A stretch of 64,000 bases of DNA, taken from contig NZ_FOYN01000001.1 of NCBI RefSeq assembly GCF_900111935.1, positions 1 through 64,000 of the forward strand, written 5' to 3'. A program made the translations under genes and the position numbers. The stretch's first letter is position 1, and every line of letters starts with the position of its first letter. Below the pieces are notes generated by a model, which saw only the letters and a list, made by a program, of their open reading frames with translations, did not search any database and was not told the origin of the DNA. Shown here piece by piece: positions 23,401-33,905 of the stretch. This DNA is from Halorubrum sodomense (GTDB taxonomy: Archaea > Halobacteriota > Halobacteria > Halobacteriales > Haloferacaceae).

Positions 23401-23439
23401 ATGAGACGATTCCGTATCTCGGACGAGGTGGCTCGATGA
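23401..23439 (+). CDS. Possible 12-residue leader peptide
   Basis: ATG at 23401 opens MRRFRISDEVAR and ends in TGA at 23437-23439, overlapping the ATG of the CoA-transferase gene (23436) as ATGA. The TATA-like GTTTTACC lies about 27-35 bases upstream, so a leaderless transcript could begin at this codon. That would make the following gene dependent on coupled translation. It could also be chance. Confidence 0.35.
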   Translation: MRRFRISDEVAR

Positions 23440-24857
23440 CCGATACCGGCGACACCGACACTGGCGACACCAACACTAGCGACACCGGAGCCGACGACAC
23501 TGGGGCTAACGACACTGGCGACACCGGAGCCGACGACACTGGGGCCGACGGTCCCACCGGCGGCGGACGGATCCTCGACGGCGTCACCGTTCTCGACCTC
23601 TCGACGTTCGTCACCGGTGGCTTCTGTTCGGCGATGCTCGCGAATCAGGGGGCGGAGGTCGTCAAGATCGAACAGCCCGGCTACGGCGACGCCGTCCGCC
23701 ACTCCGGCCCGCCGTTCATCAAGGGGGAGTCGCCGTACTACTGGACCCTGAGCTACGGGAAGAAGAGCCTCGAACTCGACCTGAAGAACGACGACGCGAA
23801 GGAGGCGCTGTACGAACTCGTCGAGGAGGCGGACATCTTCATCCAGAACTTCCGCCCGGGCACCGCAGAGCGACTCGACGTCGACTACGACACGCTCACC
23901 GAGCACAACGAGGACCTGATCTACCTCGCGATCTCGGCGTTCGGACAGACCGGACCGTGGCGCGAGCGGTCCGGGTACGACCTCCTCATCCAGGGGATGA
24001 GCGGGATCATGAGCGTCACCGGCGAGGCGGACCGCCAGCCGGTGAAGGTCGGCCTCCCGATGACGGACCTGATCACGGCGATGTGGGCGGCCTTCGGCGC
24101 GACGACGGCCCTCTACCGCAGAGAGCGGACCGGCGAGGGCGAGTACATCGACCTCGGGATGCTCGAGGCCACCCTCCCGTGGCTCACGAAGCAGGCCGGG
24201 ATGGTGTTCGCCGGCGAGGAGACGAAGCGGATGGGGACGAAAGACCCCGTCCTCGCGCCGTACCAGACGTTCGAGACGAAAGACGGGTTCATCAACATCT
24301 GTATCCTCAACGAGAAGCTCTGGGGCGAGCTCTGCGAGGCGCTCGACCGGCCGGACCTCCCCGAGGACGACCGCTTCGAGCAGAACGCGGACCGCGTGGA
24401 ACACCTCGACGAGCTCGAAGCCGAGATCGAGGCCACCCTCGCGGACAAGACGACCGACGAGTGGATCGAGGTCATCGCCGAGGACGCGGGCGTCCCCGCC
24501 GGCCCGGTGTACAGCGTCGAGGAGGCGCTGAACAGTCCCCAGATCGAGGCCCGCGGCACCATCACCGAGATCGAACACCCCGAACTCGGCGACGTGCCCG
24601 TGATCGAACACCCGCTCAAGTTCCGCAACGCCGAGAGCGGCTTCGAACTCCCCCCGCCGCTTTTAGGCGAACACAACCGCGAGGTGTTCCGCGAACGCGG
24701 CTACTCCGAGGCCGAGATCGACCGCCTCGCGGAGCTGGGCGTGTTCGGCGACGACGCGGACGACGGCGAGACTCCCGACGACGCAGACAGCGGCGAGACT
24801 CCCGACGACGCGGACAGCGGCGAGACTCCCGACGACGCGGACGAGCATGACGACTGA
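23436..24857 (+). CDS. CaiB/BaiF-family CoA transferase
   Basis: A class III CoA transferase of 473 residues that moves CoA between a thioester and a free carboxylate. The core begins at about residue 44 (GRILDGVTVLDLSTFVTGGF). Asp211 in GLPMTDL is the probable catalytic aspartate. Both ends carry tandem repeats absent from the family: Thr/Asp/Gly-rich units in residues 1-40, and three DDADSGETP-like nonapeptides at the C-terminus (27-bp DNA repeats). The gene overlaps the thiolase-like gene by 11 bp and lies behind a TetR-type operator. It probably activates the substrate acid of the pathway; substrate unknown. Confidence 0.9.
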   Translation: MTDTGDTDTGDTNTSDTGADDTGANDTGDTGADDTGADGPTGGGRILDGVTVLDLSTFVTGGFCSAMLANQGAEVVKIEQPGYGDAVRHSGPPFIKGESPYYWTLSYGKKSLELDLKNDDAKEALYELVEEADIFIQNFRPGTAERLDVDYDTLTEHNEDLIYLAISAFGQTGPWRERSGYDLLIQGMSGIMSVTGEADRQPVKVGLPMTDLITAMWAAFGATTALYRRERTGEGEYIDLGMLEATLPWLTKQAGMVFAGEETKRMGTKDPVLAPYQTFETKDGFINICILNEKLWGELCEALDRPDLPEDDRFEQNADRVEHLDELEAEIEATLADKTTDEWIEVIAEDAGVPAGPVYSVEEALNSPQIEARGTITEIEHPELGDVPVIEHPLKFRNAESGFELPPPLLGEHNREVFRERGYSEAEIDRLAELGVFGDDADDGETPDDADSGETPDDADSGETPDDADEHDD

Positions 24858-26028
24858 GGTCCGCGTCGGCGGCGTCGGCATGACGCCCTTCGAGAGCGAC
24901 TCGGGGCGTTCGCTCACCAACCTGGCGGCAACGGCCGCCGAGCGCGCCCTCGACGACGCCGCGGTCGACCTCAACGACGTCGACGCGCTCCACTTCGGCA
25001 ACGCGCTCGCCGAGGCGCTCGACGAGAGCGCGGGGCTCGCGAACGCGCTCGCGGCCGCCCTCGGCCTCGACGGCGCGTCCGCGGACCGGATCGAGAACAC
25101 GAGCGCGACCGGCGCGAGCGCCTTCCACCGGGGCGTCGACCGCATTGAAAGGGGCGAGGCCGACGCCGCGCTCGTCGTCGGCGCCGAGAAGATGTCCGCG
25201 GGCGACACGCGGAGCGTCACCGAAGCGATCAGCCGCCTCGTCCACCGCCGCGAGTACGCGCAGGGGATCACGCTCCCCTCCTTCGGCGGGCTCGCCGCCG
25301 GCGCCTACCTGGACCGCCACGACGCGCCCCGCGAGGCGCTCGCCGCGGTCGCCGCGAAGAACCACGCCAACGCGGTCGACAACCCCGTCGCGCAGTTCCG
25401 CAAGTCGATCGACGTCGAGGACGCCCTCGACTCCCCGGTCGTCGCCGCACCGCTCCGGCTGTACGACTGCTGTCCGATGTCGGACGGCGCCGCCGCGGTC
25501 GTCCTGACCCGAGCGGGCGACGCCGACGCTGACGCCGCCACCGCCGACACCGGTCACCCGCCCGCGCCCCGCGTCGCCGGCGTCGCAAGCGCGACGGGCA
25601 CCCACGCCGTCGCCGAGCGGCCGGACCCGCTCTCGATCGACTCCGTCCGGACCGCCGGCGAGCGCGTCTTCGACCGCGCCGGGATCCGTCCCGACGACGT
25701 CGACGTCGCCTGTATCCACGACGCGTTCACCGTCCTCGAACTGATCGAACTGGAGGAGCTGGGCTTCTACGACGCCGGCACCGCGTGGGAGGCGACGCTC
25801 GACGGCGACACCGCCCTCGACGGCGACCTCCCTGTCAACCCCGGCGGCGGGCTCAAGGCCCGCGGCCATCCGCTCGGGGCGACGGGCCTCTCGCAGATCG
25901 TCGAACTCGTGTGGCAGCTGCGGGGCGACCTCCCCGCGGGCCGCCGTGTCGACGGCGCGGAGACGGCGTTCGCGATCAACGTCGCCGGGTTCGGGAACAA
26001 CAGCGTCTGTACGGTGTTGCGCGCGTGA
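24847..26028 (+). CDS. Thiolase-fold protein lacking the catalytic cysteine
   Basis: A 393-residue protein of the SCP2/Ltp branch of the thiolase superfamily. The nucleophile position is Ser86 (ENTSATGAS instead of NxCSTG), the SCP2 motif HDCF is HDAF (291-294), and the C-terminal cysteine motif is NVAGFGNNS. His341 in GGGLKARGHPLGATG is kept. Loss of the cysteines excludes ordinary thiolysis. Ltp2-type proteins with the same loss are retro-aldolases working with a DUF35 partner, and a DUF35 gene follows here with a GTGA overlap. A retro-aldol step on a CoA thioester is therefore the best inference. Confidence 0.85.
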   Translation: MTTEVRVGGVGMTPFESDSGRSLTNLAATAAERALDDAAVDLNDVDALHFGNALAEALDESAGLANALAAALGLDGASADRIENTSATGASAFHRGVDRIERGEADAALVVGAEKMSAGDTRSVTEAISRLVHRREYAQGITLPSFGGLAAGAYLDRHDAPREALAAVAAKNHANAVDNPVAQFRKSIDVEDALDSPVVAAPLRLYDCCPMSDGAAAVVLTRAGDADADAATADTGHPPAPRVAGVASATGTHAVAERPDPLSIDSVRTAGERVFDRAGIRPDDVDVACIHDAFTVLELIELEELGFYDAGTAWEATLDGDTALDGDLPVNPGGGLKARGHPLGATGLSQIVELVWQLRGDLPAGRRVDGAETAFAINVAGFGNNSVCTVLRA

Positions 26029-26465
26029 CGGATCCGGACAGCGAAGTCCCGGAGAACGGCGCCCCCGCGGACCGCGACCTCCCCGCGGACGACCTCCCCG
26101 CGGACGACCTCCTCGCGGACCGGGAGCTCCCCGCGGACCGCGCCTTCGTCTGCGACGACTGCGGTCGCCGCTGGTACTACGACCGGCGCCGCTGCCCGGA
26201 CTGCGGCCGCTCGTCGGCGGACGCCTCGACGGTTCGACTCGAAACCGGGGCGGTCATGGCGACGACAACCGTCGAGACCACGCCGCCCGACGTCCGCGCG
26301 CCGAACCACCTCGCGCTGGCCCGGTTCGACGAGGTTCAGCTGATCGCACAGGCCGCCGACGGCGACCTGGCCCCCGGGGATACCGTTCGGTTCGACGGTT
26401 CCCACCGACTTCGCGACGGACGCGAGCGAACCGATCCGCGGCTCGTCGCGGTCGACGACTCCTGA
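26025..26465 (+). CDS. DUF35-type zinc-ribbon/OB-fold protein
   Basis: A 146-residue protein with a GTG start in a GTGA overlap with the thiolase-like gene. After a repeat-rich acidic segment (DLPADDLPADDLLADRELPAD) comes a rubredoxin-like zinc ribbon (Cys43, 46, 57, 60: CDDCG...CPDCG). An OB-fold follows, with conserved APNHLALARFDEVQLIAQ and GDTVRFDG. DUF35 proteins are obligate partners of thiolase-fold enzymes that act on acyl-CoA (HMG-CoA synthase/thiolase complex, Ltp2-ChsH2). The tight coupling supports a heteromeric complex with the preceding gene product. Confidence 0.87.
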   Translation: MTDPDSEVPENGAPADRDLPADDLPADDLLADRELPADRAFVCDDCGRRWYYDRRRCPDCGRSSADASTVRLETGAVMATTTVETTPPDVRAPNHLALARFDEVQLIAQAADGDLAPGDTVRFDGSHRLRDGRERTDPRLVAVDDS

Positions 26466-26565
26466 CGCCGGGTCAGACTTCGGCGGGAAACGCCGGGTCA
26501 GACTTCGGCGGGAAACGCCGGGTCAGACTTCGACGGGAAACGCCGGGTCAGACTTCGACGGGAAA
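26466..26565. repeat. Four tandem copies of a 25-bp unit
   Basis: Units start at 26466, 26491, 26516 and 26541. Each opens ACGCCGGGTCAGACTTCG and ends GGGAA, with a G/A difference at position 19 between the first two and last two units. The array begins at the stop codon of the DUF35 gene and lies between the convergent DUF35 and TetR genes. There are no spacers, so it is not a CRISPR. The unit contains GCCGGG and is G/C-skewed. Confidence 0.9.
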
Positions 26566-26592
26566 CGCCGGCGGAAAAAGGCGACCCCTCGG

Positions 26593-27324
26593 CTACTCCG
26601 TCCGTTCCAGCGACTCGAAGATGAACTCGTCCATCGCCTTCCGGGCCTCCTCGGGCGCGTCCTCGTGACCGAGCGAGATCCGGCGCCCGCGCGCGGCGTG
26701 GATGACGTCGGTCACCAGCTGGCCCATCCGCTCCGCGTCGACGTCGCGGAAGACGCCCTCCTCGATCCCCTCCTCGACGACCTCGACGATGCTGCCGCGG
26801 ATGCGCTCGTAGTGCTCGTTGAACACCTCGCGGTGGTCGCCGTCGTTTTGCGCCTGCGTGTACAGCTCGTGGTACACCTTCATCCGGTCCCAGTGGCTAA
26901 ACTCCTCGAACTCGGGGCCGAACAGGCACTGGTCGACGCGGGCGCGGAGCTCGGTCCGCGGGTCCGCGTCCCCGTCGACGACCACGCTCCCCTCGTACTG
27001 GTCGATGATGTGTTCGAGGAACGAGGACATCAGGTCGTACTTCCCGTCGAAGTGATAGTGGATCACCTGCCGCGTGAGGTCCATCTCCTCCCCGATGTCG
27101 CGCATCCGGAGGTCCTTGTACCCGTGCTTGCTCAGCGCGCGGAACGTCGCCTCCATGATGACCTCCTTCGTGTCCTTCGAGGACACCGTCTCCCCGCCGG
27201 ACTCGTCGGCGGGGTCCTCTGCGGGAGGGCTCCCCTCGGAGGGCCGCTCCCGGGAGGCGTCGTCGCCGCCGTCGGTCGGGGACTCGACGGATTCGCCCGC
27301 CGATCCGCCCTGTGATTCGCTCAT
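26593..27324 (-). CDS. TetR/AcrR-family transcriptional regulator
   Basis: A 243-residue regulator. After about 48 acidic, low-complexity residues comes the TetR DNA-binding domain (54-98) with MRDIGEEMDLTRQVIHYHFDGKYDL, whose tail is the classic helix 3-4 signature. The remainder is a helical ligand-binding domain. The ATG at 27324 is preferred over GTG at 27330. It is divergent from the amidohydrolase gene. The palindrome at 27373-27388 between them is the likely operator and recurs upstream of the CoA-transferase and BNR/TatD genes. It is probably an acyl-CoA- or substrate-responsive repressor of the whole block. Confidence 0.9.
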   Translation of the reverse strand: MSESQGGSAGESVESPTDGGDDASRERPSEGSPPAEDPADESGGETVSSKDTKEVIMEATFRALSKHGYKDLRMRDIGEEMDLTRQVIHYHFDGKYDLMSSFLEHIIDQYEGSVVVDGDADPRTELRARVDQCLFGPEFEEFSHWDRMKVYHELYTQAQNDGDHREVFNEHYERIRGSIVEVVEEGIEEGVFRDVDAERMGQLVTDVIHAARGRRISLGHEDAPEEARKAMDEFIFESLERTE

Positions 27325-27372
27325 ACCCACACTCTACGGGTGAGGTACATAATACGATTGGCTCTCACTGCG

Positions 27373-27422: not shown

Positions 27423-28778
27423 ATGACACAGACGATCGTTCGAAACGGGACCGTGGTCTCGCTCGACCCGGACGTGGGGGAGTTCGAGGAGGCCGACGTC
27501 CTGATCGAGGACGGCGAAATCGTCGAGGTAGGCACCGGACTTGCGGCGTCGAACGCGGAGGAGATCGACGCTTCCGGGAAGATCGTCGTCCCCGGCTTCG
27601 TCGACTCGCACATCCACCTCGCGCAGACGCAGGTACGCGGTATCGCCGGCGACTGGTCGCTCATGGGCGAGTACTTCGACCATATGCTCGGTAACATCAC
27701 CGGGCTCTATCAGCCCGAGGACATGTACCTCGGCGGTCTCTACGGCGCCTTCGAGAAGCTCTACACCGGGACGACGACGGCGCTCGACTGGTCGTACCCC
27801 AACACGCTCGAACACGGCGAACGCGCCGTCGACGCGCTGAAGGACACCGGACTGCGCGCGGTGTACACCTACGGTCCGCCGGGCGACGACGCGGCGAAGT
27901 GGTGGTACGAGAGCGACGTGGGCCTCCCCGAGGAGAACATCCGTAGCCTCCACGAGGAGAAGATCCGCGACGACGACCTGCTCACCCTCGCGCTCGGGCT
28001 CCGCGGCCCCGACTTCTGCGTCCCCGAGACCGCTCGCGCGGACCTGGAGCTGGCGCGCGACCTCGGCGTCCTCTCGACGATCCACATGGGCGCCGCGCTG
28101 TGGCCGTCCTCCGAGTACGGCGACGACTACCAGGGCTTCGGCGCCATCGAGGACATGCTCGGCCCCGACGTCAACGTCGCCCACGGGAACCACTTCACCC
28201 AGGAGGACATCGACCACGCCGTCGAGCAGGGGGTCTCCTTCTCGTCGACGCCGGAGGTCGAGATGCAGATGGGCCACGGCATCCCCGTCACCGGAAAGGT
28301 GCTCGAGGCCGGCGGCCGCCCGGCGTGGGGCGTCGACGTCTGCTCGAACGTCAGCGGCGACATGGGGAGCCAGATGCGCATCGGGATGCAGCTCCAGCGC
28401 ATGTTCGACAACCAGGCGGTGTTAGAGGGCGACGAGGAGGTCACCGAGGTGAGCATCTCCGCGCGCGATACCCTCGAAATGGCCACCATCGAGGGCGCGA
28501 AGGCGCTCGGCCTCGACGACGAGATCGGGACGATCACGCCCGGCAAGCGCGCCGACCTCGTCCTGTTCGACGCCGACGACTTCATGACCGCCCCCAGCCA
28601 CAACCCGGTCCAGACCGTCGTGTTCCAGACCGATCCCTCGCACATCGACACCGTCCTCGTCGACGGCGAGGTCGTCAAGCGCGACGGCGAGCTGACGAAC
28701 CCGAAGGTCGACGAGGAGTTCGACCGGTTCGTCGCCTCCGGCGAGCGCCTCCTCGACGAGGCCGGGATCGACCTGTAA
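27423..28778 (+). CDS. Amidohydrolase (deaminase/chlorohydrolase-like)
   Basis: A 451-residue metal-dependent hydrolase of the cyclic amidohydrolase superfamily, nearest in layout to TrzN/AtzA/SsnA and cytosine or guanine deaminases. Metal ligands: His63 and His65 in GFVDSHIHLAQT, a histidine in STIHMG, one in VAHGNH, and Asp in AWGVDVCSN. The C-terminus closes the beta sandwich (GTITPGKRADLVLFD). The mononuclear set predicts deamination or hydrolytic removal of a ring substituent; the substrate is unknown. The promoter has a TATA about 30 bases before the ATG (leaderless) and the TetR operator just upstream. The FAH gene follows 61 bp on. Confidence 0.92.
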   Translation: MTQTIVRNGTVVSLDPDVGEFEEADVLIEDGEIVEVGTGLAASNAEEIDASGKIVVPGFVDSHIHLAQTQVRGIAGDWSLMGEYFDHMLGNITGLYQPEDMYLGGLYGAFEKLYTGTTTALDWSYPNTLEHGERAVDALKDTGLRAVYTYGPPGDDAAKWWYESDVGLPEENIRSLHEEKIRDDDLLTLALGLRGPDFCVPETARADLELARDLGVLSTIHMGAALWPSSEYGDDYQGFGAIEDMLGPDVNVAHGNHFTQEDIDHAVEQGVSFSSTPEVEMQMGHGIPVTGKVLEAGGRPAWGVDVCSNVSGDMGSQMRIGMQLQRMFDNQAVLEGDEEVTEVSISARDTLEMATIEGAKALGLDDEIGTITPGKRADLVLFDADDFMTAPSHNPVQTVVFQTDPSHIDTVLVDGEVVKRDGELTNPKVDEEFDRFVASGERLLDEAGIDL

Positions 28779-28839: not shown

Positions 28840-29724
28840 ATGCGAATCGGACAATACCGAACGACGGACGAACAGACACCGTGGCCCGGCGTCGCGACCG
28901 ACGACGGCGTCGTCGACCTCGCCGAGGCCGGCGCCGCCGCCGGCGTCCACGTGCCCGACCGAACCAGCGACCTCCTCGCCGACTGGGAGTGGCGCCGCAA
29001 GGCCGACCTCGCGGTCGAACACGCCGCGGAGACGGGCGTCGGCGTCCGCGACCCTACCGACCTCGAGCGCGCCGCCCCCGTCGACGACCCGCGGAAGGTC
29101 GTCTGCGTCGGACTGAACTACCGCGACCACGCCGAGGAGGGCGACAACGAGATCCCGGACGAGCCCGTCCTCTTCTCGAAGTTCCCCACCTCGGTCGTCG
29201 GCCCAGACGACGCGGTCCGATGGGACCCCGAGTACACCGAGAAGGTGGACTACGAGGCCGAGCTCGTCGCCGTCATCGGCGAGCGCGCCCGCCGCGTCGA
29301 CCCCGAGGACGCCCTCGACCACGTCGCCGGCTTCACCGTCGGCAACGACGTCTCCGCGCGCGACCTCCAGCACGGCGACGGCCAGTGGGTCCGCGGGAAG
29401 AGCCTCGACACCTTCGCCCCGACCGGCCCCGACCTCGTCACGACCGACGAGATCGACGACCCGCACGACCTCGAGATATTCGCCGAGGTCAACGGCGAAC
29501 GGCTTCAGGAGTCGTCGACCGAGAACCTGATCTTCGGCGTCGACGAGCTGATAGCCTTCTGTAGCCGGGCGTTCACGCTCGAACCCGGCGACCTGGTGTT
29601 CACCGGCACGCCCCCCGGCGTCGGCGTCTACCGCGACCCCCCGGTGCTGCTCGGCGACGGCGATTCGGTCACTATCGGCGTCGAGGGCGTCGGCGAACTC
29701 ACGAACGAGTTCGAGACGGAGTAG
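28840..29724 (+). CDS. Fumarylacetoacetate hydrolase (FAH)-family protein
   Basis: A 294-residue FAH-superfamily enzyme. The N-terminal about 70 residues are a small domain. The catalytic domain begins DPRKVVCVGLNYRDHAEE, carries the acidic metal ligands in KVDYEAELVAVIG and NDVSARDLQ, and ends with FTGTPPGVG. Family members cleave C-C bonds of acylpyruvates or decarboxylate oxo-acids (catechol meta-cleavage, ureidoglycolate-like reactions). With the amidohydrolase and CoA enzymes it suggests breakdown of a ring-derived dicarbonyl. It probably shares the amidohydrolase transcript. Confidence 0.92.
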   Translation: MRIGQYRTTDEQTPWPGVATDDGVVDLAEAGAAAGVHVPDRTSDLLADWEWRRKADLAVEHAAETGVGVRDPTDLERAAPVDDPRKVVCVGLNYRDHAEEGDNEIPDEPVLFSKFPTSVVGPDDAVRWDPEYTEKVDYEAELVAVIGERARRVDPEDALDHVAGFTVGNDVSARDLQHGDGQWVRGKSLDTFAPTGPDLVTTDEIDDPHDLEIFAEVNGERLQESSTENLIFGVDELIAFCSRAFTLEPGDLVFTGTPPGVGVYRDPPVLLGDGDSVTIGVEGVGELTNEFETE

Positions 29725-31756: not shown

Positions 31757-32764
31757 CTACTCCGCCAGCCCGAACACGTCTCGCGGGTTCTCGTACACGA
31801 CGGTCCGGATGTCGTCGACGTCGATGCCGTACCGGTACAGCTCGAACATCGCGCGCTTCACCGCGTACGGGTCCGTGCGCAGCACGTTCGCGGTGTCGGT
31901 GTCGATCATGACCCGCTCGGAGCCGTACTCGTCGATGGCGTTCGCCACGTCGGCGGCGTCGACGCCGACCAGCCACGAGTGGCCGATGGTGTAGCTCAGG
32001 TAGCAGTCCGTCTCGGTCATCAGGTACTCCGTGTTGTTCGCGTCCGCGTGCGAGGCGACCACGCGCTCCTCGTCGAGGCCGGCGTCCGCGGCCGCCTCGA
32101 CGTCCCGCTTTACCGCCTCCAGGGCCGGGTTCTCGCCGTCGAGGACCGGCTCGGTACCGAGCCCGGTGTTCTTCTCGTACCCCGGCGTCACGCCGAGGTC
32201 GTCGCGGTACTCCCGCTTCGCGTCGGGCGTCGTGTTCGGCGTGTGGAGCAGGACGGGGAGGTCGTGGTCGGCGGCCAGCTCCATCTGCGCCCCGACGACC
32301 GCCTGCTGCTCGTCGACGTCCCAGCGCTCGACGTGCTGGCTCGGGACGACGCCGGTCTCTCCGACTGCGACGACCTCGTCGAGCGCGCAGTAGTCGTCCA
32401 TCGCGGCCAGCAGCTCGTCGGGGTTCTCGATCCGGACGCCGGTGTGGACGCCGAGCCCCAGCTTCGCCTCGAAGAAGTGGTTGCGCTCGATCGCCCGCCG
32501 GCGGTTGATCGCGTCGTCCCAGAGGAAGCGGATGTCGCTCGCCTCCACGGGCTTGTAGGGGGTCCAGTGGTACCCCGACGACACCATCACCATCGACCGG
32601 CAGCCCGAGAGGGCGTACCGCTCGCGGTCCTCCCACGAGAGCGTGTGCGCGTGGTTGTGCGGGTCGATCCACGGAATGTTCAGCAGTTCGGTCGGGAGGT
32701 CCGGGTCCGAGCCGTCGAGGAACGCGGCGTCCGTCGGGCGAACGGTGGCGTGTGGCGCGGTCAT
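31757..32764 (-). CDS. TatD-like metal-dependent hydrolase
   Basis: A 335-residue amidohydrolase-fold protein of the TatD/phosphotriesterase-like group. His36 and His38 are in IDPHNHAHTL, Glu in VVAVGETGVV, histidines in LPVLLHTPNT and VVASHADANN, and Asp in VMIDTDTANV. It could hydrolyse a lactone, an amide or a phosphoester; a DNase role is less likely given the pathway neighbours. It is divergent from the BNR gene across a TetR-type operator and probably belongs to the same regulon. The preceding gap 31597-31756 holds no gene. Confidence 0.87.
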   Translation of the reverse strand: MTAPHATVRPTDAAFLDGSDPDLPTELLNIPWIDPHNHAHTLSWEDRERYALSGCRSMVMVSSGYHWTPYKPVEASDIRFLWDDAINRRRAIERNHFFEAKLGLGVHTGVRIENPDELLAAMDDYCALDEVVAVGETGVVPSQHVERWDVDEQQAVVGAQMELAADHDLPVLLHTPNTTPDAKREYRDDLGVTPGYEKNTGLGTEPVLDGENPALEAVKRDVEAAADAGLDEERVVASHADANNTEYLMTETDCYLSYTIGHSWLVGVDAADVANAIDEYGSERVMIDTDTANVLRTDPYAVKRAMFELYRYGIDVDDIRTVVYENPRDVFGLAE

Positions 32765-32843: not shown

Positions 32844-33905
32844 ATGACACTGTTGATCGGGACAGACTCGGGGCTGTACCGAACGGACGACGTCCCCTTC
32901 GAGCGCGACGAGCTCGACCCCGTCCTCGACTGCGGGGTCGTCACCGCGGTGAAGTCGTGGGACCACACCGAGGGCGTGTTCGTCGCCTCCTCGACGGGCG
33001 CGTACCGCTCGCTCGACGGCGGGGAGACGTGGACCGACCTGGAGGTCCCCCTCGGCGACCGCTTCTGGCACGCCGGACAGAGCGAGGTGTGGTCGATCCT
33101 CGCGACCGCGGACGGCGCGCTGTACGCCGGCACGAACGACCCCTACGTCTTCCGCTCGGTCGACGGCGGCGAGACGTGGACCGAGCAGAAGGGGTTCCGC
33201 GAGCTCCCCTCCCGCGGCCACTGGGAGTCGCCGATCGACCCGCACTACGCCCGGCTCCGCGCGCTGGAGGCGGTCCCCGGCCGCCCGGAGCACCTGATCG
33301 CCGGGGTCGAAGCGGGCGGGATCCACGTCAGCCGCGACGGCGGCCGCACGTGGTCCGACCACCGGGACGCCATCGTCGACGACGTCCACCAGGTTCTCCC
33401 CATCTCGGAGGACGTCTGGCTGGCGGCGACCGGCTACCTCGACCACGACTTAGAGAACCTCGGCCTCGGCCACGCGGTCGGCGAGGGCGGGCTGTGGCGG
33501 ACGACCGACGCGGGCGAGTCGTGGGACCGGCTCGACGTCGGCAGCGACTTCTCGTACATCCGCCGGGTGTTCGTCCACGACGGTCGGGTGATCTTCTGCG
33601 GCGGCGAGGAGGCGCCCCCGGCGTGGGTGAACGACGACCACGAGGTCGCGCTGTTCGAGTCGACGAACTTCGGCCGCGACTTCGAGCGCGTCGACTTCCC
33701 CGGCGAGCCCCACGAGATAATCGAGACGTGGGCGGTCCACGACGGCGACGTGGTCTGCGGCTCCGGCCTCTTCGACGTGCCCGACGAGCGCGACGACGTG
33801 GCGGGCCGGATCATGCGGCGTCTCGACAGCGAGGGCGACGAGGGGCCGACCTACGAGACGGTCGGTCGCGTCGACGCGAACGTCAGCCGGATCGAGGTGG
33901 TCTGA
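32844..33905 (+). CDS. BNR/sortilin-like beta-propeller protein
   Basis: A 353-residue predicted beta-propeller with at least four Asp-box (BNR) repeats: SLDGGETW, SVDGGETW, SRDGGRTW and TTDAGESW, spaced by 50-100 residues. No signal peptide is visible (MTLLIGTDSGLYRTDD), so it is cytosolic. Asp-box propellers occur in sialidases, photosystem assembly factors and lyase-like enzymes; none is clearly matched. It is the first gene of an operon with the DoxX-like gene, under the third TetR-type operator. It may be a binding or isomerase protein for the pathway substrate. Confidence 0.85.
   Translation: MTLLIGTDSGLYRTDDVPFERDELDPVLDCGVVTAVKSWDHTEGVFVASSTGAYRSLDGGETWTDLEVPLGDRFWHAGQSEVWSILATADGALYAGTNDPYVFRSVDGGETWTEQKGFRELPSRGHWESPIDPHYARLRALEAVPGRPEHLIAGVEAGGIHVSRDGGRTWSDHRDAIVDDVHQVLPISEDVWLAATGYLDHDLENLGLGHAVGEGGLWRTTDAGESWDRLDVGSDFSYIRRVFVHDGRVIFCGGEEAPPAWVNDDHEVALFESTNFGRDFERVDFPGEPHEIIETWAVHDGDVVCGSGLFDVPDERDDVAGRIMRRLDSEGDEGPTYETVGRVDANVSRIEVV

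Follow-up and report, generated by a model that had tools for sequence, protein, structure and literature searches.

A serine-type thiolase coupled to a DUF35 protein in Halorubrum sodomense: a candidate heteromeric Ser-dependent 3-ketoacyl-CoA thiolase

In a stretch of 64,000 nucleotides (nt) from Halorubrum sodomense (contig NZ_FOYN01000001.1, positions 1 to 64,000; here called the window), two overlapping genes encode a thiolase-fold protein with serine in the place of the nucleophilic cysteine (24847-26028) and a protein of the DUF35 family (26025-26465). Thiolases are textbook cysteine enzymes. With somewhat better than even confidence, we propose that the two products form a heteromeric Ser-dependent 3-ketoacyl-coenzyme A (CoA) thiolase, composed of an alpha subunit of thiolase fold and a DUF35 beta subunit and resembling BktB and PhaA from Haloferax mediterranei. 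This proposal is based on the conserved residues Ser86, His291, and His341, on the likeness to BktB, on the grouping in a phylogenetic tree, on the archaeal thiolase folds retrieved with the structural model, and on the overlap with a CoA-transferase gene. The window thiolase belongs to a separate, uncharacterised subclade, a variant of the Ser-type thiolase already known from haloarchaea, and it is the subclade itself that is new.

Results

Serine replaces the nucleophilic cysteine in a protein of SCP2-type thiolase fold

The translation of the thiolase gene matches Pfam Thiolase_N (2.7e-38) and Thiolase_C_1 (5.9e-41), and its AlphaFold model (predicted local distance difference test, pLDDT, 71; low confidence at residues 338-340) retrieved the archaeal thiolases 7YVY, 6ESQ, and 4YZO as best folds in Foldseek; the protein has the SCP2-type thiolase fold. 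An original prediction, made from the sequence alone, had placed Ser86 at the Cys position of the thiolase motif, and this was borne out by the translation (IENTSATGAS) and by an alignment in which the same column holds Cys in 6ESQ, 7YVY, and 6HSJ and Ser in 4YZO and BktB-alpha. The translation also contains the other predicted hallmarks, namely HDAF in place of HDCF at residues 291-294 (within ACIHDAF) and His341 in a GHP motif (surrounding stretch GLKARGHPLGATG), and a C-terminal Cys motif is indeed missing from its 393 residues.

From SCP2-type Cys thiolases the window protein departs by Ser86 instead of the nucleophilic Cys and by HDAF instead of HDCF. The C-terminal CxG cysteine is missing as well from the Cys-type SCP2 enzymes 6HSJ, 6ESQ, and 7YVY, and its absence is normal for SCP2-type thiolases. 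HDAF is likewise carried by the Cys-type Pyrococcus thiolase 7YVY. Therefore, Ser alone separates the window protein from ordinary archaeal thiolases, and the loss of both cysteines, which had been taken to argue for new chemistry, does not prove it. The genome of 3.03 Mb encodes three thiolases of SCP2 type, among them a Cys-type paralogue (G000:C7; ESACASAG, HDCF) and a Ser-type paralogue (on C8; DQTSSSGGA, HDMF) that is about 45% identical to the window thiolase.

The downstream gene encodes a DUF35 partner

A DUF35 gene following with a GTGA overlap had also been predicted, and such an overlap was found: the 4 nt at 26025-26028 are common to the GTG start of the DUF35 gene and the TGA end of the thiolase gene, which implies translational coupling of the two. 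By itself, the DUF35 protein from the window has a weak match to OB_ChsH2_C (E = 0.0037) that falls short of the Pfam cutoff, but of its 15 aligned relatives, 14 have matches to OB_ChsH2_C as well as zf-ChsH2, and the zinc-ribbon cysteines C43, C46, C57, and C60 are conserved in the alignment. When its AlphaFold model (pLDDT 77; calculated from the window sequence plus genome-derived rows) was submitted to Foldseek, ranks 1-20 consisted only of DUF35 chains of thiolase-fold complexes and of stand-alone DUF35 proteins, including 6ESQ, 7PXP, 5M3K, 6OK1, 9MYR, and Trf and the types PhlB, BbsA, ChsH2, and Shy. Alignment and model thus indicate a genuine DUF35 protein composed of a zinc ribbon and an oligonucleotide/oligosaccharide-binding (OB) fold. 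In 51 of 55 orthologous loci, the gene immediately following the thiolase gene was identified as DUF35-like, and the overlap is exactly 4 nt in 42 of the 55. Within the DUF35 gene, a coding tandem repeat (26063-26142) corresponds to a repetitive N-terminal extension of the protein.

The serine is conserved among orthologues

All 55 distinct orthologues, which come from many genera of haloarchaea, have Ser86. Of the 292 Halobacteria genomes searched, 44 carry an orthologue with 54% identity or more, and the distribution within genera is patchy. In a 20-member alignment, S86, H291, H341, Cys208, and Cys209 are invariant, and pairwise ratios of nonsynonymous to synonymous substitution rates (dN/dS) among orthologues lie between 0.18 and 0.38. 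The lost canonical Cys might suggest a non-catalytic or decaying paralogue; however, as the catalytic positions are invariant, dN/dS is 0.18-0.38, and operon and 4-nt coupling are kept across families, this explanation is scarcely credible, and the exclusion of chance or decay for the Ser86 protein is well supported. The codon class of Ser86 (always AGY in the window clade, mostly TCN in the BktB clade) was considered as a sign of independent origin or special constraint, but this argument was dropped because controls showed most other invariant Ser positions to be equally locked and because positions 88 and 91 differ in class between the clades too.

BktB is the closest characterised relative

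According to reviews (PMC7137286, PMC9049629, PMC11205408), whose account of Hou et al. 2013 is the source for the BktB biochemistry given here, BktB and PhaA from H. mediterranei are active beta-ketothiolases, use Ser-His-His in place of Cys-His-Cys for catalysis, and depend on an OB-fold beta subunit that is indispensable to their activity. On the H. mediterranei plasmid pHME505, a gene for a Ser-type thiolase (L073, WP_004060618.1) and a DUF35 gene overlap by 4 nt and are followed by SagB-like and orc1 genes, a gene order compatible with this pair being the published HFX_6004/6003 (BktB-alpha/BktB-beta). BktB-alpha is 45% identical to the window thiolase over the full length, and BktB-beta is 32% identical to the window DUF35 protein over 85 amino acids. 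Both pairs have Ser at the nucleophile position, the His of the HD motif, the His of GHP, and a separate DUF35 gene overlapping by 4 nt. As in haloarchaeal-type beta-ketothiolases, the alpha subunit of the window pair therefore displays Ser-His-His when aligned with BktB-alpha, and an adjacent OB-fold gene is evident from the overlap and the DUF35 fold, with co-transcription as a prediction. In contrast, BktB has HDMF where the window thiolase has HDAF, and Glu, Asp, and Ser where the window thiolase has Cys289, Gly251, and Gly333. BktB serves the supply of poly(3-hydroxybutyrate-co-3-hydroxyvalerate), whereas the window pair is located in a catabolic cluster with a CoA-transferase. Matches of about 45% identity exist in most haloarchaeal genomes searched; a few of these sequences were inspected for the Ser.

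Other archaeal structures share part of these features. Another Ser-type protein (NTSGSGGS) is Sulfolobus tokodaii ST0096 (4YZO), the best match by sequence in the PDB (1.6e-71), but it has HDMA, lacks Cys at 208/209, and keeps Glu289. The archaeal acetoacetyl-CoA thiolase/DUF35/3-hydroxy-3-methylglutaryl-CoA (HMG-CoA) synthase complex 6ESQ resembles the window pair in fold, GHP, and DUF35 partner but has a Cys nucleophile and HDCF, and 7YVY agrees with the window thiolase in fold, GHP, and HDAF but not in its Cys nucleophile. As BktB combines Ser with a DUF35 partner and is reported to be active, loss of the Cys in a DUF35-coupled protein does not on its own speak for a non-thiolase. Of the original claim of changed chemistry rather than decay, the part concerning decay stands, whereas changed chemistry is not implied, BktB having the same Ser/His/His and a DUF35 subunit.

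Proposed mechanism

The catalytic roles, reaction direction, and pathway that we infer for the window pair would be as follows. His341 would activate Ser86, which would attack the 3-keto carbon of a 3-ketoacyl-CoA so that acetyl-CoA (or an analogue) leaves; the enolate might be held or protonated by His291, and the acyl-O-Ser enzyme would be resolved by CoA. The DUF35 protein would be needed for assembly and would help to shape the entrance for CoA and substrate, as in solved DUF35 complexes. The putative substrate is a 3-oxoacid, which would be made into a CoA ester by the product of the overlapping CaiB-type transferase gene and then thiolysed, and the amidohydrolase and fumarylacetoacetate hydrolase (FAH)-family protein encoded nearby may act upstream in the pathway by opening the parent compound.

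Ester acyl-enzymes are readily hydrolysed, and the acyl-Ser ester could instead be resolved by water or another acceptor, which would make the pair a non-thiolytic C-C hydrolase or a PhlC-like acyltransferase. PhlABC is an example of a thiolase/DUF35 complex with acyltransferase activity (PMC6392133), and the neighbourhood is rich in hydrolases. However, the closest characterised relative is a thiolase and the annotated genes around the pair include no third subunit resembling PhlA or HMG-CoA synthase, and we consider such an activity very unlikely.

Phylogeny and the signature of the subclade

In a maximum-likelihood tree of 85 rows, from which the PhaA sequence was left out, all non-Cys members form one group (100/99) apart from the Cys-type 7YVY, 6ESQ, and Cys paralogue. 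The group contains the BktB clade with Ser and HDMF, the Ser-type 4YZO, an archaeoglobal protein with Ser and HDAF, the window clade, and a Pro/Thr clade, and its deep branching order is not resolved in the tree. The window clade (41 tree rows, 100/100 support, long stem of 0.78) does not fall within the BktB clade and joins it only at the deeper, poorly resolved non-Cys node. The approximately unbiased (AU) test does not reject the union of all Ser types in a single clade (p-AU 0.27), and it weakly rejects a joint clade of window and Pro types (p-AU 0.03); because of long branches on some rows, these tests are indicative only.

Several observations weigh against a Ser-dependent thiolase. Changing Cys to Ser abolishes the activity of the related PhlC (PMC6392133), so that natural Ser-type enzymes must have compensated. 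The best NCBIfam match of the window thiolase, PRK06064 "thiolase domain-containing protein" (NF004720), reaches 361 bits and falls short of the curated cutoff of 420. Three positions otherwise nearly constant are altered in the window clade: Glu289 is replaced by Cys in 54 of 55 members (Glu in 42 of 42 others compared), Asp251 by Gly in 55 of 55 (Asp in 40 of 42 others), and Ser333 by Gly in 55 of 55 (Ser in 41 of 42 others). In the sister clade, the nucleophile position is occupied by Pro in 26 of the 28 rows and by Thr in the other 2. In addition, we know of no assayed member of the window subclade. Given the Pro in the sister clade and the exchange of Glu for Cys289, an altered mechanism could still apply. 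If the window pair is a Ser-dependent thiolase, its Ser chemistry may have been tuned further by Cys289, Gly251, and Gly333; no mention of these changes was found in the open-licence literature searched.

Cys289, two residues ahead of His291 in HDAF, might also be a relocated thiol nucleophile in place of the missing Cys, as might the invariant Cys208 or Cys209. However, one member of the window clade carries Ser289, the Ser-type 4YZO is without Cys208/209 (YTP), Cys209 is common in Cys-type enzymes, and the model places residue 289 at the end of a predicted strand that precedes the catalytic loop, not where the active-site helix begins. Any such relocation seems most improbable.

The Pro/Thr clade is found in Asgard archaea, Bathyarchaeota, Thermoproteota, Nitrososphaerota, Chloroflexota, Bipolaricaulota, and other bacteria. 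Its loci (L127:7992-9176, L121:7953-9149, L139:7998-9167, L122:1721-2902, and related ones among L120-L166) show NGPASG and keep HDAF, GHP, and DUF35. The PRK06064 family takes in both Cys-type and Pro-type members, and two tested members of the Pro/Thr clade exceed its cutoff. In Anaerolineae, the Pro-type cluster (L127:5534-13236 and similar) includes a 230-residue protein without Pfam match, DUF35, an AllG-like protein, a 530-residue protein, a PF04199 cyclase, and molybdenum-hydroxylase subunits, a composition that suggests N-heterocycle catabolism. An archaeoglobal member (Ser) and bathyarchaeal and thermoproteotal members (Thr) adjoin methylmalonyl-CoA-mutase-type genes and MeaB (L123:4979-9474, L126:2583-7291, and L129:6105-9533).

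Comparison with steroid retro-aldolases

The original prediction suggested a comparison with the Ltp2-ChsH2 complex and a check for conserved active-site tyrosines. Like the window pair, Ltp2-ChsH2 (6OK1) and Sal-Shy (9MYR) combine a thiolase fold lacking the nucleophilic Cys with DUF35. Ltp2 uses Tyr294 (YDHF) and Tyr344 for catalysis; Sal uses Tyr302 and an essential Cys304 (YDCY), and the residue in its nucleophile position is Gly (PMC12329534). The catalytic Tyr of both, the first residue of YDHF/YDCY, corresponds to His291 in the window thiolase and in all 20 aligned orthologues, and the position of Sal Cys304 corresponds to Ala293. In the 20-member alignment only the tyrosines at 137, 154, and 206 are invariant or near-invariant, far before the region equivalent to Tyr344 as placed by motif spacing and not by residue alignment with 6OK1. 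A model on the lines of Ltp2/Sal is disfavoured. The window DUF35 protein is free-standing, whereas DUF35 is fused to a hydratase in the Ltp2-ChsH2 and Sal-Shy systems. A search with NF005892 found no member above cutoff in the H. sodomense genome or the control genomes. Membership in the Ltp2/Sal type was rejected, as the catalytic Tyr and the second acid are unmatched, and from these motifs aldolase-like working of the window pair appears less likely.

A non-covalent C-C lyase of retro-aldolase or retro-Claisen type would work without an acyl-enzyme: His291 or Cys289 would serve as the base or acid that acts on a 3-hydroxyacyl-CoA, and the role of Ser86 would be confined to shaping the pocket. 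Besides the fold and DUF35 partner shared with Ltp2-ChsH2 and Sal-Shy, this possibility draws on the sister clade that retains HDAF, GHP, and DUF35 yet has no Ser, and on the subclade-specific E289C near His291. The aldolase Tyr and the Cys304 of Sal are missing, however, Ser86 and the GHP His are strictly kept, BktB-type relatives are reported as thiolases, and a common clade with the Pro types is weakly rejected; we regard a lyase of this kind as possible but unlikely.

Gene neighbourhood

The 3' end of the CoA-transferase gene overlaps the start of the thiolase gene by 11 nt, and because of this and the 4-nt overlap, the CaiB-type, thiolase, and DUF35 genes look like one translationally coupled operon. 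The gene order listed in Table 1 is found in the window and in many orthologous loci, with the TetR and TatD genes on the opposite strand; DoxX joins the cluster in most relatives.

Table 1. Genes of the cluster and catalytic codons, in window coordinates
Feature	Position	Strand	Basis or remark
CaiB-type (family III) CoA-transferase	23436-24857	+	Pfam CoA_transf_3 2.3e-124; adjoins the thiolase gene at many orthologous loci
Ser-type thiolase alpha subunit, 393 amino acids	24847-26028	+	Translation, Pfam, fold, alignments
Ser86 codon AGC	25102-25104	+	Position of thiolase nucleophile Cys
Cys289 codon	25711-25713	+	Subclade-specific, replaces Glu
H291-D292-A293-F294 motif (within ACIHDAF)	25717-25728	+	His291 putative oxyanion-hole or acid/base residue
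His341 of GHP motif	25867-25869	+	Putative activator of Ser86
DUF35 (zinc ribbon and OB-fold) beta subunit, 146 amino acids, GTG start	26025-26465	+	Foldseek, Pfam matches of relatives
TetR-family regulator	26593-27330	-	Opposite strand within conserved cluster
Amidohydrolase (TRZ/ATZ type, PRK08204 subfamily)	27423-28778	+	477 bits, cutoff 391; conserved
Fumarylacetoacetate-hydrolase family protein	28840-29724	+	Pfam FAA_hydrolase 4.9e-73; conserved
TatD-like metal-dependent hydrolase	31757-32764	-	Usual cluster neighbour
BNR/sialidase-like repeat protein	32844-33905	+	Usual cluster neighbour

The genomic place of the cluster varies between genera, and in some cases genes for a sugar isomerase, a short-chain dehydrogenase/reductase, and an ABC transporter lie alongside. 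In other subclades, the neighbours are nucleobase-type permeases, MoeA, urease, M20, and amidohydrolases, or else an enzyme dependent on thiamine pyrophosphate (TPP) together with an enoyl-CoA hydratase and a further CoA-transferase. Across haloarchaeal families and several catabolic settings, CoA-transferase, thiolase, and DUF35 recur as a core, in which an acid would be activated as CoA ester before undergoing C-C cleavage. A single pathway substrate was not assigned since neighbours differ between orthologous loci.

Coding tandem repeats at 23439-23550 and 24749-24842 correspond to the acidic low-complexity tails that the CoA-transferase has at either end. A 25-bp tandem repeat (4.3 copies, 98% match, 26465-26571) begins on the final base of the DUF35 stop codon and lies between the convergent DUF35 and TetR genes.

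Discussion

A broader explanation would cover the whole Cys-less thiolase/DUF35 superclade, with Ser in haloarchaea and Sulfolobales and Pro or Thr in Asgard archaea, Chloroflexota, Bipolaricaulota, and others, as a widespread, unrecognised family of non-covalent C-C lyases or ligases of N-heterocycle and acid catabolism. We consider this quite unlikely; if it were true, the haloarchaeal subclade would use His291/Cys289 and no nucleophile. The Pro-type sister clade is arguably a more surprising lead than the window subclade, and with Pro at the nucleophile position many proteins of Asgard archaea and Chloroflexota may be misannotated as "thiolase domain-containing protein". The window subclade, which has Ser for Cys and Cys289 for Glu and is encoded in catabolic operons, offers a clean test of whether serine carries Claisen chemistry or whether these proteins became something else.

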